From Nitrospinota bacterium (GTDB lineage: Bacteria; Nitrospinota; Nitrospinia; JACRGO01): a stretch of DNA of 11,471 bases. Under the pieces are notes generated by a model that was given only the letters and a program-made list of their open reading frames with translations, was not told the origin of the DNA and did not search any database. The stretch spans positions 1 through 11,471 of the forward strand of contig JACRGO010000184.1 of assembly GCA_016212295.1 (NCBI GenBank), given 5' to 3'. The position numbers were made by a program, and so were the translations under genes. Shown here in pieces: positions 164-11,471 of this stretch; position 1 is the stretch's first letter, and each line of letters begins with the position of its first letter.

Positions 164-1099
164 TCACAACTTCCATTCCCTTACAGCCAGCAGTTCTTTT
201 TCCTTTTTCCACGACCTTCTAAGCATGAGCGAAACCTTCGCCCTGTCGCAATCCTTTGGCAAGGGATATTCCTCCTTCCATTCCTTCTTGAAATGGAGAG
301 GGGTCTCCAGTTGTGGCGCGAAAATTGTCTTCTCCCGGCCCAGAAGAGAGTCCCTTGAGAAAAATTCCACCTCCAGGTAAAGCCTGGGGTCCCCGTTCTC
401 CGCGGTGGGAAGATTGTGTGGGACCCCGGTATTTTCCAGGACCGCCGACAGCCTGCCTTCTCCGGCCCGGACCTCGAACCGGATATCTTTATCCGTCAAG
501 GACAAGGCCGGCATGGAATGGTCTCCGGCATCAACCTCGGAATGGATTGGCAAAAGGTAGTATGGAAATTTATCTATCATCTTTTCCTTTCTTAAAGGCA
601 TGTGGCATTCCTGGCATGTCTTCGGGCTTCCCGATTCTTTCAGCTCCTTGAAGGTCTGGACGTGGCAGCCCTTGCAAGCGTCGGACCGGCGGTAAACGGC
701 GTCCCTTTCCGAGGGATGGGGAGGGGAGAAGACCTGGTGAGGACCGCGCATGGCGCCGTCCCTGAAATGGCAGGCAAGACACGAAATGCCGTCATCCAGG
801 TGAAAATCCCTGGGGAGCGGTTTTTCAGTGAAGGAGATTTCCTTGGGGATGTGGCACCCCAGGCACTTTATCTTTTTGTGGTTCTCGGTCTCCTTCGCGT
901 ATCCTTCGCTGGTCCAGGAGAGGGAATGCCGGCTCTTTTCCCAATCCCTGAATATCTTTCCATGGCATTCGGCGCATCGCTTCGCCGGCGGATTCCGCAG
1001 CAGCTCGTCTTTACGGAAGAACCCGGTCTTCAATAAAAGAGCGGTCCCCGCCGAGAGTAGGAGAAGGAAAATAAGAGGGTATTTTATTTTTCGTGTCAT
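164..1099 (-). CDS. Membrane-anchored pentaheme c-type cytochrome (cytochrome c554-like)
   Basis: The product is 311 residues from the ATG at 1099; an in-frame TTG at 1117 would add six residues but has no better ribosome site. Residues about 5-25 form a hydrophobic signal/anchor (IKYPLIFLLLLSAGTALLL) with no clear signal-peptidase motif, so I infer an N-terminal anchor with the rest in the periplasm. Five CXXCH haem-binding motifs follow: CAECH (42-46), CLGCH (79-83), CLACH (107-111), CKGCH (142-146) and CQECH (162-166). The spacing and the 'W-x-x-S-x-H' after the first haem fit the cytochrome c554 family of multihaem electron carriers. The C-terminal 125 residues contain no haem motif. They carry GVPHNLPT followed by an RLYLEVEFF strand, resembling the beta-rich tail of other multihaem cytochromes in which a His-x-x-Pro-Thr segment packs near a haem. 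The redox partner is unknown. The gene stands alone, divergent from glnB. Confidence 0.85.
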   Translation of the reverse strand: MTRKIKYPLIFLLLLSAGTALLLKTGFFRKDELLRNPPAKRCAECHGKIFRDWEKSRHSLSWTSEGYAKETENHKKIKCLGCHIPKEISFTEKPLPRDFHLDDGISCLACHFRDGAMRGPHQVFSPPHPSERDAVYRRSDACKGCHVQTFKELKESGSPKTCQECHMPLRKEKMIDKFPYYLLPIHSEVDAGDHSMPALSLTDKDIRFEVRAGEGRLSAVLENTGVPHNLPTAENGDPRLYLEVEFFSRDSLLGREKTIFAPQLETPLHFKKEWKEEYPLPKDCDRAKVSLMLRRSWKKEKELLAVREWKL

Positions 1100-1201
1100 A
1101 GCGCGGCATATCCGCAATTAAAATAAATTTCGATGTATTCAACGCAAATTTCTGAACGTAATAATATAATGCCTTAAAATAAATCAATTGCCCCACAATA
1201 A

Positions 1202-1512: not shown

Positions 1513-1857
<345 letters not shown>

Positions 1858-1873
1858 TTTTAAAAATATAGTA

Positions 1874-1885
1874 GACGCAAAGGCG
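1874..1885. repeat. Short CGCAAAG-type repeat core between glnB and glnA
   Basis: GACGCAAAGGCG begins 17 bases after the glnB stop codon. It shares the CGCAAAG core with the longer copies at 1359-1389 and 7799-7825. It is short enough that chance is possible, but it directly abuts the hairpin repeat at 1896-1971. Confidence 0.3.
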
Positions 1886-1895
1886 TGAGAAAACG

Positions 1896-1971
1896 AGACC
1901 CTGAAACGAGTTCAGGGTGACAAGCCGGCATGCTTGCGCTTATATGTCATCCTGAACTTGTTTCAGGGTCT
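1896..1971. repeat. Long inverted repeat (27-bp arms) between glnB and glnA
   Basis: The arms 1896-1922 and 1945-1971 are inverted copies differing at two positions. In plus-strand RNA both differences become G-U pairs, so the transcript could form an uninterrupted 27-bp stem with a 22-nt loop. Each arm is itself a small palindrome (CCCTGAA-ACGAG-TTCAGGG; CCTGAA-CTTGT-TTCAGG). There is no U-run after the stem, so it is not a classical terminator. It resembles the CCTGAA...TTCAGG family of palindromic repeats that I recall from intergenic DNA of many unrelated bacteria. Lying between glnB and glnA it could alter the ratio of the two messages by stalling or by protecting an RNA end. This is inference. 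Confidence 0.75.
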
Positions 1972-1988
1972 GAACTTGTTTCAGGGTC
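1953..1988. repeat. Tandem duplication of an 18-bp unit at the right end of the inverted repeat
   Basis: The 18-bp unit TGAACTTGTTTCAGGGTC occurs at 1953-1970 and again at 1971-1988 with no mismatch. The first copy is part of the right arm of the long inverted repeat, so the second copy offers an alternative pairing partner for the left arm. From 1990 to 2049 the DNA is AT-rich. It contains a perfect TATAAT at 2020-2025 but no good -35 at the right distance, so a separate glnA promoter is uncertain. Confidence 0.85.
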
Positions 1989-2059
1989 TAAATAAACGCT
2001 GAATAATTAAATAAAATTTTATAATTTAAAAAAACATTTAAACTTTATTGGAGGAAGAA

Positions 2060-3475
2060 ATGACGCCGAAACAGGTAATGGCATTCATCAAGGAAAAAAA
2101 CATATTGATGGTGGATTTGAAATTCATGGACTTCCTTGGCACGTGGCAGCATTTCACCGTGCCGGTTGGAGAAATGAACGAGGACAGCTTTGAGGAAGGC
2201 TACGGATTCGACGGCTCGAGCATACGGGGATGGCAGCCGATCCATGCCAGCGACATGCTGGTCATCCCGGACCCGAAAACCGCGCTGATCGACCCCTTTT
2301 GCAGGGAGTTGACCCTGAGCCTTATCTGCAATATCGTTGACCCCATCACCAAGGAAAATTATTCCAGGGACCCCAGGAACATCGCCCAAAAGGCGGAGGC
2401 GTATTTGAAGTCAACCGGCATAGCCGACACCGCTTATTTCGGCCCGGAGCTTGAATTTTTCCTCTTTAACGACGTCAGGTACGAGACCGGCCAGAACCAT
2501 TCCTTCTACTTCGTGGATTCCCCTGAAGGGACGTGGAACACGGGGAGGATGGAACCCAATGGGAACCTCGGCTACAAGCCGCGCGTGAAGGAAGGGTATT
2601 TCCCTTGCTCCCCGACGGACAGCTTGAATGATCTTCGCACCGAGATGGTGCTGGCCATGCAGCAGCTCGGCCTTGAGATCGAATGCCAGCACCACGAGGT
2701 CGCGACAGGCGGCCAGTGTGAAATCGATGTAAGATACGCGGAGCTTACCAAGGCGGGCGACAATATCATGCTGTACAAATACGCGGTGAAAAACGTGGCC
2801 AAGAGAAACAACTACTCGGCCTGCTTCATGCCGAAGCCCATATTCCAGGACAACGGATCAGGAATGCACACGCACCAGTCCCTTTGGAAGGGCGGGAAGC
2901 CGCTGTTCGCGGGCAACAGTTACGGCGGCTTGAGCGAAATGGCCCTTCATTACATCGGCGGCATTCTGAAACACGCCCCGGCCCTTTGCGCCTTCGTGGC
3001 CCCGTCCACAAACTCCTACAAGCGCCTTGTTCCGGGTTACGAAGCGCCGGTGAACCTGGCCTATTCCAGCAGAAACCGGAGCGCCTCCATCCGCATCCCC
3101 ATGTACCAGGCCAATCCCAAGAGCAAGAGGGTCGAGGTAAGGTTCCCTGACCCCTCGGCGAATGGATACCTCGCCTTCTCCGCCATGCTCATGGCAGGAC
3201 TGGACGGAATAGAAAACAAGATCGATCCGGGCGAGCCGTTGGACAAGGACATATACGCCCTCGGACCGGAAGAGCTGGCCTCGGTCCCCAGCACCCCCGG
3301 CTCCCTGACGGAGGCCATCAACGCCTTGGAGGCGGACCACTCCTTCCTGCTGAAAGGGGACGTCTTTACCCAGGACGTTGTGGATATGTGGATCGATTAC
3401 AAGAGGGAGAAGGAAATAGCGCCCATTAACTTGCGGCCCCATCCCCATGAGTTCGCCTTGTATTACGATTGTTGA
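2060..3475 (+). CDS. glnA: Type I glutamine synthetase
   Basis: This 471-residue enzyme makes glutamine from glutamate, ammonia and ATP, and is the main route of ammonium assimilation. The length is normal for the dodecameric type I family. Signatures in order are [10 protein letters not shown] (49-58), PELEFF with metal-binding Glu130 and Glu132, HHEVATGGQ (211-219), the nucleotide/metal region [16 protein letters not shown] (259-274) with His269, [13 protein letters not shown] (318-330), and the C-terminal [19 protein letters not shown], with Tyr399, corresponds to the E. coli Tyr397 adenylylation site. The enzyme is therefore probably controlled by GlnE-type adenylylation linked to the PII protein encoded upstream. 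I chose the ATG at 2060 because GGAGGAA lies at 2050-2056. An in-frame TTG at 2048 overlaps that ribosome site and is rejected. A strong terminator follows 29 bp after the stop. Confidence 0.97.
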
Positions 3476-9569: not shown

Positions 9570-9598
9570 ATTATAAAAGGAAGCAGAAAAATTTTCAA
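9570..9598 (-). promoter_or_regulatory. Sigma70-type promoter of the monoheme cytochrome
   Basis: On the minus strand TTGAAA (9598-9593) is separated by exactly 17 bp from a perfect TATAAT (9575-9570), close to the ideal housekeeping promoter. Transcription would start near 9563, about 44 nt before the ATG. A 12-bp inverted repeat AGTTC-TT-GAACT (9548-9559) lies just after the predicted start and could be an operator. Confidence 0.75.
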
Positions 9599-9675: not shown

Positions 9676-10101
9676 TTAATGGTCCTCTTTCTTCCTGTAA
9701 CTATAGGAGTCCAGGACCCTTTGGGTCGATTCGAATTTCAGTCCCACTTGGGCCAATTTTTCCGTGGTCGCGGCAAGCCGGTTCACCATGGCCTTTATGA
9801 CGAATCGCATGTCCTCCGGTATCGCCTCCATTTTCGCCAGGAAACTCTTCCTGTCTATTATGCCCAGGGTCGCCTCGCCTTCCGCCACTATTGTGGCGGA
9901 GCGGGGGGCCTCGCCTATGAGGCCCATCTCGCCGAAGACGTCCCCTTTGCCCAGCACGCTTATGACCACTTGCCTGTCCTGCACGGTCTTCACGACCCGG
10001 ACCTTGCCGGAGAGGACCACATAGGCGTTGTTGCTGACGATTCCCTCGGTGACAATAACGTCGCCGTCCTTGTATTTTTCCACCAAAGGCACATAATCCA
10101 T
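9676..10101 (-). CDS. Stand-alone cyclic-nucleotide-binding domain protein
   Basis: The 141-residue product begins MDYVPLVEKYKDGDVIVTEG. It consists of one Crp/PKA-type cyclic-nucleotide-binding domain (about 1-105): a GDVI turn, VVLSGKVRVVK strands and the phosphate-binding cassette FGEMGLIGEAPRSATIVA (56-73). Glu58, Arg67 and Ser68 occupy the positions used to hold the ribose and cyclic phosphate in CAP, so ligand binding looks competent. Residues 105-141 are helical and too short for the winged-helix DNA-binding domain of Crp proteins, so this is not a transcription factor by itself. An ATG-proximal GGGAGGT, lying inside the end of the upstream gene, is its ribosome site. The spacing to that gene's stop is 1 bp. 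I infer that it is a cAMP, cGMP or c-di-GMP responsive adaptor for the adjacent pilus retraction ATPase. Longer upstream starts would read through the neighbour's 3' end and are rejected. Confidence 0.88.
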   Translation of the reverse strand: MDYVPLVEKYKDGDVIVTEGIVSNNAYVVLSGKVRVVKTVQDRQVVISVLGKGDVFGEMGLIGEAPRSATIVAEGEATLGIIDRKSFLAKMEAIPEDMRFVIKAMVNRLAATTEKLAQVGLKFESTQRVLDSYSYRKKEDH

Positions 10102-10102
10102 G

Positions 10103-10771
10103 TTAAATTTTACCTCCCGCCACCAGGGCTTCCCTGAAAATTTTATAAAACCGTTCGTTTTCCTGAATGGATTGTTTGAGCAGCCCGGCAATATTTCCCA
10201 TGTCCTTGATATTAACAACCAGGTTGACGCTCAGGGTGAAGGCGGCCATTTTATCCATTGATTTGAAGCTTTTCCCAAGCAGGACCACGAATACAAAGCG
10301 CCTCTCCACCATGGGCATGGGCTGGATATGCAAAAGCACCGGATTTTCCTTCAATGAAAAATCATCGAAATTCTCGTTGATGATAATCATATCATAACGA
10401 TTGAATTTCATCTTGTTTATCGCAACGGTGGCGTTTTCCGCGATGCTCATCCTATAACCCAATTCCTTCAAGATGTTCTCAATATCGCCGTGGTTTTCCT
10501 TGTCGCATACAAGGGCCAGCGGCTCAGTACCGTCGTATTCCTCGAAATAATTAACCGCCGGCTCCAGTACCTTTATGTCAAGAGTTATATCGGGCTTCTT
10601 CGCTTGTTGTTCCGCCCCTTCAACGGTCCCCTTTACCGCCGCTTCGTCTCCGGGTTTATAGGATATTTTACCGGAGCAGGACGGGCACTTCACGCTGAAC
10701 GCCTTGCCTGAGGGGACCTTGGAGTCCGGAAGCACAAGCTCCTTGCCGCAGTTTTCACAAGTGAGTTTCAT
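10103..10771 (-). CDS. Zinc-ribbon protein with a degenerate receiver-like domain
   Basis: The 222-residue protein has two parts. Residues 1-40 are an MJ0042-type zinc ribbon with Cys5, Cys8, Cys29 and Cys32 (CENC ... CPSC). After a charged linker (about 42-66), residues 84-205 resemble a response-regulator receiver: strand PLALVCD, a helix GDIENILKELGY, then NATVAINKMKFNRYDMIIINE. The residue expected to be the phosphoacceptor Asp is Asn132. The usual Lys-Pro end motif is absent, since SVNLVVNIKDMGNIAGLL takes its place. Phosphorylation is therefore unlikely, and I call it a pseudo-receiver. The start ATG overlaps the ATPase stop by one base (TAATG), and the next gene follows after 1 bp. The function is unknown. 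Context points to a protein-interaction or localisation factor for type IV pili, similar in concept to the FrzS pseudo-receiver. Confidence 0.75.
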   Translation of the reverse strand: MKLTCENCGKELVLPDSKVPSGKAFSVKCPSCSGKISYKPGDEAAVKGTVEGAEQQAKKPDITLDIKVLEPAVNYFEEYDGTEPLALVCDKENHGDIENILKELGYRMSIAENATVAINKMKFNRYDMIIINENFDDFSLKENPVLLHIQPMPMVERRFVFVVLLGKSFKSMDKMAAFTLSVNLVVNIKDMGNIAGLLKQSIQENERFYKIFREALVAGGKI

Positions 10772-11471
10772 TACATACGCCTTTTCATTTTCTTGAATTT
10801 ATCGTCTTCGTCGTCGCCGTATCCGGCGTCCAGGGACAGGCCCTCGATGTCGGTTGTCTTTTCTCCACGCGAGCTCTTGAGCGTGTCAATGCCCCGGCTG
10901 ACTACCGCCTTCCTGGAGCAATAATTAACCGCTGTTTCCTCGGTTACCTTCCCTTCTTTATACAGGTCAAGGATGGCCTGGTCAAAGGTCTGCATTCCAA
11001 AAGTCCTGCTGGCGGAAATGATTTCGTAAAAAGTCTTTCCCTCTGATTCGCCGTTGAGTATGGTGTCCTTGACCCTGAGGTTCGCGCCCATGACTTCAAG
11101 GGCCGCAACGCGGCCTCCGCCGACCCTCGGAAGCAGCCTTTGGCCGACTATCCATCTTATGGTGTCCGCAAGCCTGGTCCGCACCTGCACCTCCTCGTCC
11201 TTGTCGAACATGCCTACAATGCGGTTTATGGTTTGCCCCGCGTCCACGGTGTGAAGGGTGCTCATCACCAGGTGGCCCGTCTCCGCCGCGCTCAGGCCGA
11301 TTTCCACAGTCTCCCGGTCTCTCATTTCTCCGACCAGGATGACTTTAGGGGCCTGCCGCAAGGCGGCCCTCAGCCCGGAAGCGAAGGAATCGAAATCAGT
11401 GCCTAGCTCCCGCTGGTTGAAGGTGGCCTTTTTGTGGATGTGGACGAATTCCACAGGGTCTTCCAGGGTGA
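10771..11471 (-). CDS. pilT: PilT-family type IV pilus retraction ATPase, C-terminal two thirds
   Basis: The gene enters from the right edge, so the Walker A motif and the N-terminal domain are outside the window. About 232 residues are visible from TLEDPVEFVH, the Asp-box segment of secretion ATPases. Then follow RELGTDFDSFASGLRAALRQ, the Walker B motif VILVGEMRDRET, the His box ETGHLVMSTLHT, and RLADTIRWIVGQRLLPR. PilT hexamers depolymerise pilin to power twitching. GEMRDRET and the TLHT box favour PilT. The later GMQTFDQAILDLYKEGKV also occurs in PilU-like proteins, so PilU is an alternative. The C-terminus has an unusual acidic-then-basic tail (GYGDDEDDKFKKMKRRM) that would be available for contact with the two downstream proteins. 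A GTG at 11454 is internal and not the start, since the frame continues to the edge. Confidence 0.92.
   Translation of the reverse strand, partial: TLEDPVEFVHIHKKATFNQRELGTDFDSFASGLRAALRQAPKVILVGEMRDRETVEIGLSAAETGHLVMSTLHTVDAGQTINRIVGMFDKDEEVQVRTRLADTIRWIVGQRLLPRVGGGRVAALEVMGANLRVKDTILNGESEGKTFYEIISASRTFGMQTFDQAILDLYKEGKVTEETAVNYCSRKAVVSRGIDTLKSSRGEKTTDIEGLSLDAGYGDDEDDKFKKMKRRM

Follow-up and report, generated by a model that had tools for sequence, protein, structure and literature searches.

Type IV pili are governed by c-di-GMP through binding to the pilus motors or to their helpers. Such action directly at the motors has been described (PMC5013675), and cAMP is known to influence pili through the transcription factors Vfr and SYCRP (PMC11656802, PMC7690835). 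The first of these two papers reviewed PilB control in 2024, and its passages on cAMP deal with transcription only. A further described route is that of Myxococcus FrzS, a pseudo-receiver working by protein contact in pilus control (PMC11580455).

Here we analyse a complete 11,471-base contig (G000:C140; hereafter the window) from the 3.74-Mb genome of an uncultured Nitrospinota bacterium. On the minus strand at its right end lie the genes of a PilT-family ATPase (PilT2), a zinc-ribbon pseudo-receiver (MID) and a stand-alone cyclic-nucleotide-binding protein (CNB), in that order. We propose a model, to which we give an even chance of being right as a whole, in which MID would be the fixed partner of PilT2 and CNB would make the complex answer to cAMP. 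In the open-access literature we found no description of a pilT2-MID pair or of a CNB at PilB or PilT. We rate second-messenger control of pilus motors as known, and the putative receptor (CNB) and adaptor (MID) as new.

Genes at the end of the contig

The features of the trio are listed in Table 1. The TAA stop codon of pilT2 and the start codon of MID share one base (TAATG), and a gap of 1 bp separates the MID TAA (10105..10103) from the CNB start at 10101; the earlier note had described both the trio and these tight junctions, and they are present where it placed them. It had also named the first gene as a PilT-family ATPase. The family assignment stands and can be refined: of two tandem PilT genes this is the second, and it has lost its N-terminal part at the contig end. 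Homologues in the same order at 40 other Nitrospinota loci show that the three genes are real and not chance reading frames. For CNB, a profile search gave no further domain match besides cNMP_binding.

The cytochrome c gene downstream of CNB has its own promoter-like site, so that CNB is probably the last gene of the pil operon. The window is best explained as carrying the 3′ portion of an operon for type IV pilus retraction. Elsewhere in the window we noted a multihaem cytochrome c in which CXXCH occurs several times (164-1117, minus strand), and a reading frame for glutamine synthetase, with a TTG start as listed, behind that of a PII-like protein (1519-3475), the latter two named from sequence.

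Table 1. Features of the pilT2-MID-CNB end of the window
Feature	Position	Strand	Support
pilT2, PilT-family retraction ATPase, C-terminal 232 aa	10771..11471	-	TIGR01420 4.7e-66, T2SSE 5.6e-27
MID, zinc-ribbon pseudo-receiver, 222 aa, constant pilT2 partner	10103..10771	-	Zn_ribbon_4 1e-7
MID zinc ribbon, residues 1-38, Cys5 Cys8 Cys29 Cys32	10658..10771	-	
MID residues 84-187, receiver fold; phosphoacceptor position taken by Asn132	10211..10522	-	
MID long C-terminal helix, residues 188-218	10118..10210	-	
CNB, 141-aa protein made of a lone cyclic-nucleotide-binding domain of the CRP N-terminal type, no HTH	9676..10101	-	cNMP_binding 8.5e-23
CNB phosphate-binding cassette FGEMGLIGEAPRSA, residues 56-69	9895..9936	-	
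CNB long C-terminal helix, residues 96-140	9682..9816	-	
CNB Thr112-Thr113 pair, aligned to CRP Thr127-Ser128	9768-9763	-	
Sigma-70-like promoter, 11/12, before next gene (cytochrome c)	9570..9598	-	consensus match only

The two PilT-family ATPases

Another contig of the same genome, C99, carries pilT (358 aa), pilT2 (398 aa) and the start of MID, in that order. It shares 765 bp with the window at 89% identity (window 10707-11471 vs. L160 1-762). The two pilT2-MID versions in the bin are 89% identical in DNA and 96% in protein and both lie at contig ends; we tentatively read the copy on C99 as a strain mixture at an assembly break rather than as a paralogue, with a duplication as the alternative.

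In the part of PilT2 encoded by the window, VILVGEMRDRET forms the Walker B/Asp-box region and GHLVMSTLHT the His box, and the protein is extended at its C-terminus; its Walker A falls outside the window. Among PilT2 homologues Walker A was present in 77/77, the consensus has VILVGEMRDRET and GHLV.STLHT, and a full-length homologue exceeds the TIGR01420 cut-off. The AIRNLIRE-type motif of PilT was not found in the PilT2 consensus, while PilT1 has all PilT motifs, i.e., Walker A and B, the His box and an NLIRE-type version. PilT2 is thus classed, from its predicted protein, as a divergent second PilT-family ATPase. Its assignment as a true PilU was dropped, as the match to PilT (5fl3, 279 bits) exceeds that to PilU (9n32, 231 bits).

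Gene order in Nitrospinota and beyond

The earlier note had made its proposal depend on conserved adjacency of the genes in relatives. We found MID in 43/60 relatives, and CNB follows it in 41/41 Nitrospinota loci (40 loci of relatives, one of them truncated, and the window). Typically pilW comes first, and a rodZ-like gene, pilT, pilT2, MID, CNB, pilC and pilS follow in turn; the last two genes lie behind CNB in 39/40 related loci, the window and the sister genome being different in this respect. Among the 60 relatives, PilT2 was found in 40, each of which also has MID, and in 0/17 of those without MID (Fisher 7e-15). In the three relatives with MID but no PilT2 match, MID lies at a contig edge.

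A single-sequence MID search of genome contigs gave no match, whereas an alignment-based profile gave 138 loci. From these 138 relatives, which come from named genomes, we retained 80; they belong to Nitrospinota, Desulfobacterota, Nitrospirota and a Rokubacterium. Adjacency was counted over the 80 kept loci and 39 more distant ones, with the preceding gene visible in 118. PilT2 is encoded immediately before MID in 111/118 testable loci from four phyla, with a median gap of 19 bp; the other seven loci hold either second copies or members of a set of longer proteins. In the sampled genomes MID was carried by 72/247 Desulfobacterota and 21/148 Nitrospirota. At the loci of the three phyla other than Nitrospinota, CNB was never the next co-directional gene after MID. 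With the core present there without CNB, pilT-pilT2-MID is older and wider, and CNB a Nitrospinota addition that is dispensable for retraction as such. A conserved pilus-motor module, as the earlier note had supposed, is supported by both adjacencies, CNB after MID and PilT2 before it. Its picture of a single three-gene adaptor set gives way to an older PilT-PilT2-pseudo-receiver core to which CNB was added, usually followed by pilC and pilS.

Convergent CNB genes near MID were seen at three loci and were set aside as evidence, being too few and not co-directional. They encode a CNB-PilZ protein of a Desulfobacterales genome, the gene of which converges on pilT-pilT2-MID (L109:7684-8403, minus strand), an ordinary CRP (L260), and a lone 139-aa CNB protein in a Nitrospirota genome (L261:4067-4483). 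The CNB-PilZ protein is a possible receptor of both cAMP and c-di-GMP in one chain.

MID as a pseudo-receiver

The structure model of MID, a confident one (mean pLDDT 86), consists of a zinc ribbon, a disordered linker, a CheY-like fold and a long C-terminal helix. In a Foldseek comparison the receiver matched CheY with E 2.5e-5, prob 1.0 and TM 0.71 on target. The zinc ribbon and the replacement of the phosphoacceptor Asp by Asn, both pointed out before, hold for the window protein (Asn132), but Asn is not the rule of the family: among 120 MID homologues the position is occupied by N39, H23, S20, D17 and others. Since this position varies across the family, we regard the domain as a pseudo-receiver. 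The zinc ribbon is missing from most Nitrospirota homologues.

The most conserved parts among the 120 homologues are Arg157-Arg158 and the beta4-alpha4-beta5 region. The latter is the usual output face of receivers. By analogy with FrzS, we infer that MID would act by protein contact, and the partner that it binds is likely to be PilT2.

A profile search of the window MID did not detect a DUF4388/PATAN domain; DUF4388 is a domain that we take to be PATAN-like. Four longer MID relatives (L248-L251, 329-369 aa) do not lie beside pilT2, and both of those tested had the arrangement DUF4388-zinc ribbon-receiver.

CNB as a candidate cAMP sensor

Glu58, Arg67 and Ser68 of CNB are invariant or nearly so in 38 homologues (E38, R38, S32/T6). 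The residues of mature E. coli CRP that we take to hold cAMP are G71, E72, R82, S83, T127 and S128. At the corresponding positions, 36 CNB homologues have G36, E36, R36, S30/T6, T36 and T29/S7. As all six contact positions are kept, with Ser or Thr at two of them, cAMP is the likely ligand of CNB. The trio has no PilZ or MshEN, and c-di-GMP was set aside as a candidate ligand.

The earlier note had described this cassette in a protein without a DNA-binding domain, which was borne out: the chain stops after the long helix. No HTH was found in CNB. Its model closes with a single helix of 45 residues at the place of the CRP dimer helix, which in CRP is followed by the HTH, and homologues (133-144 aa) likewise stop after the helix. 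The best structural match of the model was cAMP-bound Bd1971 (6hq4, E 4.6e-13), and CRP proteins were also near the top. By these features CNB is a predicted CRP-type sensor ending before the helix-turn-helix, and we do not class it as a CRP.

CNB domains on PilB, nucleotide cyclases and possible targets of CNB

Contig C12 of the same genome encodes a PilB composed of MshEN, the ATPase and a C-terminal CNB domain (L162:6402-8648, minus strand), and CheA-like and CheD-receiver genes lie nearby. PilB with a C-terminal CNB occurs in 7 genomes from three Nitrospinota families. In Desulfobacterota it was called by full-length coverage, with two cases confirmed by Pfam, in 10/148 genomes (L266, L267 and eight more; 54-62% identity over nearly full length), and 8 of these 10 carry MID (p = 0.001). 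The CNB domains of PilB keep the FGEM cassette and its Arg but not the Thr-Ser pair, and their ligand is therefore less certain than that of CNB.

Nitrospinaceae ATPases of 940-1050 aa were at first suspected to carry CNB, and the three tested have GAF instead. Two loci (L194:1103-7301, L193:2276-5101) encode such GAF-MshEN-T2SSE proteins, which form tandem pairs in some genomes. We also observed a PilB-type ATPase combining a receiver, MshEN and a double zinc ribbon in one chain (L201:3526-6012, minus strand).

The fusions to PilB bear on the main alternative to our model, namely that CNB senses cAMP for the pilus machine but acts on the platform protein PilC, the kinase PilS or the extension ATPase PilB, with MID serving PilT2 independently. 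That fused CNB domains are found on PilB and not on PilT agrees with it, as do the regular presence of pilC and pilS behind CNB, which could make their products alternative targets of CNB, and the existence of PilT2-MID without CNB in three phyla. Yet pilT2, MID and CNB remain linked in the two genomes, that of the window and its sister, where pilC and pilS do not lie downstream. We consider this alternative somewhat doubtful, but the strongest of those weighed here.

Class III nucleotide cyclases gave 4 matches in the genome of the window. They were found in 38/43 relatives with MID vs. 9/17 without it (p = 0.005), a comparison confounded by the size and completeness of the genomes. Five relatives that carry CNB gave no match to a class III or CYTH-type cyclase, and three of the five are at least 92% complete; G018, G020 and G035, which are nearly complete, keep CNB while neither cyclase type was found in them. 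These five genomes are in line with a CNB that operates outside cAMP signalling, having another ligand or none and serving as a structural dimer or a scaffold for MID. Conservation of the six CRP contact positions in 36 homologues would be unexpected of a dead pocket, and we hold such a role to be unlikely.

Less probable still is an action of CNB on transcription, by titration of cAMP or by pairing with full-length CRP, in which case its place in the operon would reflect co-regulation only. CNB does keep the dimer helix and the cAMP residues of CRP, and pili of P. aeruginosa and Synechocystis are under cAMP control via Vfr and SYCRP (PMC11656802, PMC7690835). Against it stand the absence of the HTH from CNB homologues, the conserved position of CNB beside motor genes and the fusion of CNB domains to PilB, itself a motor.

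A model of cAMP action at the retraction motor

The model of cAMP acting at the motor draws on the gene order, the constant PilT2-MID pairing, the kept ligand residues, the predicted folds and the presence of CNB on PilB in the same genome. In this model PilT and PilT2 would power retraction, and MID would be the dedicated partner of PilT2, with a receiver fold no longer reliant on phosphorylation. CNB would have joined the operon in Nitrospinota as a dimeric CRP-type cAMP sensor devoid of a DNA-binding domain. Binding of cAMP would reorder the pair of C-terminal helices of CNB, as it does in CRP and in Bd1971, an enzyme under cAMP control; the change would alter the docking of CNB on the MID-PilT2 assembly, and cAMP would in this way set retraction directly. 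The step in which CNB acts on the MID-PilT2 complex is one on which we are evenly divided. That the pili of this operon do not retract, with PilT2-MID in another PilT role, e.g., in a secretion-type machine, is very improbable: PilT paralogues without a demonstrated role in retraction exist (Geobacter PilT1 and PilT2; PMC5065972), but the PilT1 of the present operon is canonical in its Walker A/B, His box and NLIRE-type motifs and the operon has pilW, pilC and pilS.

Direct control of retraction by cAMP may, more tentatively, be extended to a push-pull switch in which cAMP would act on extension via the CNB fused to PilB and on retraction via CNB on the pseudo-receiver-PilT2 complex, with no transcription factor involved. 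Our data suggest that the pilus motor may be a direct target of cAMP, which would then do more than switch genes. If this is true, a cAMP receptor that does not bind DNA, present in the retraction operon and on PilB, would bring cAMP to the motor and allow fast control. Moreover, the pilT2-pseudo-receiver pair is a simple candidate for the regulation of a second retraction ATPase in four phyla with little-studied pilus control.

Comparison with known systems

The arrangement of pilT and pilT2 resembles the PilT/PilU tandem of V. cholerae, A. baylyi and P. aeruginosa (PMC6821130), in which the second of two PilT-family ATPases is likewise longer. PilT2 differs in being no nearer to PilU than to PilT by sequence and in being tied to MID. 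For MID we found no described counterpart. FrzS is similar in having a receiver fold without phosphorylation residues, but it has a coiled coil and binds SgmX (PMC11580455); MID carries a zinc ribbon, and its gene accompanies pilT2. PATAN-receiver regulators, e.g., PixG of Synechocystis, are also of the receiver type and bind components of the pilus motor (PilB1, PilC), and some MID homologues have a DUF4388 ahead of the zinc ribbon and receiver. Yet PixG is phosphorylated and targets PilB1/PilC (PMC12288463), and the DUF4388 forms of MID are not encoded next to pilT2.

CNB shares the ligand pocket and the dimer helix with CRP, Vfr and SYCRP, the cAMP receptors controlling pili, but these act on DNA and CNB lacks the HTH. 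In Bd1971, the CNB-EAL protein of Bdellovibrio (PDB 6hq2-6hq7), a cyclic-nucleotide domain similarly has a non-transcriptional output; there the EAL enzyme is fused, while CNB is a separate protein that would have a motor complex as its partner. Control of PilB/MshE by c-di-GMP through MshEN (PMC5013675) is alike in placing a second messenger directly at the pilus motor. CNB would represent another messenger and another domain, and the PilB of the same genome has both MshEN and a CNB domain.
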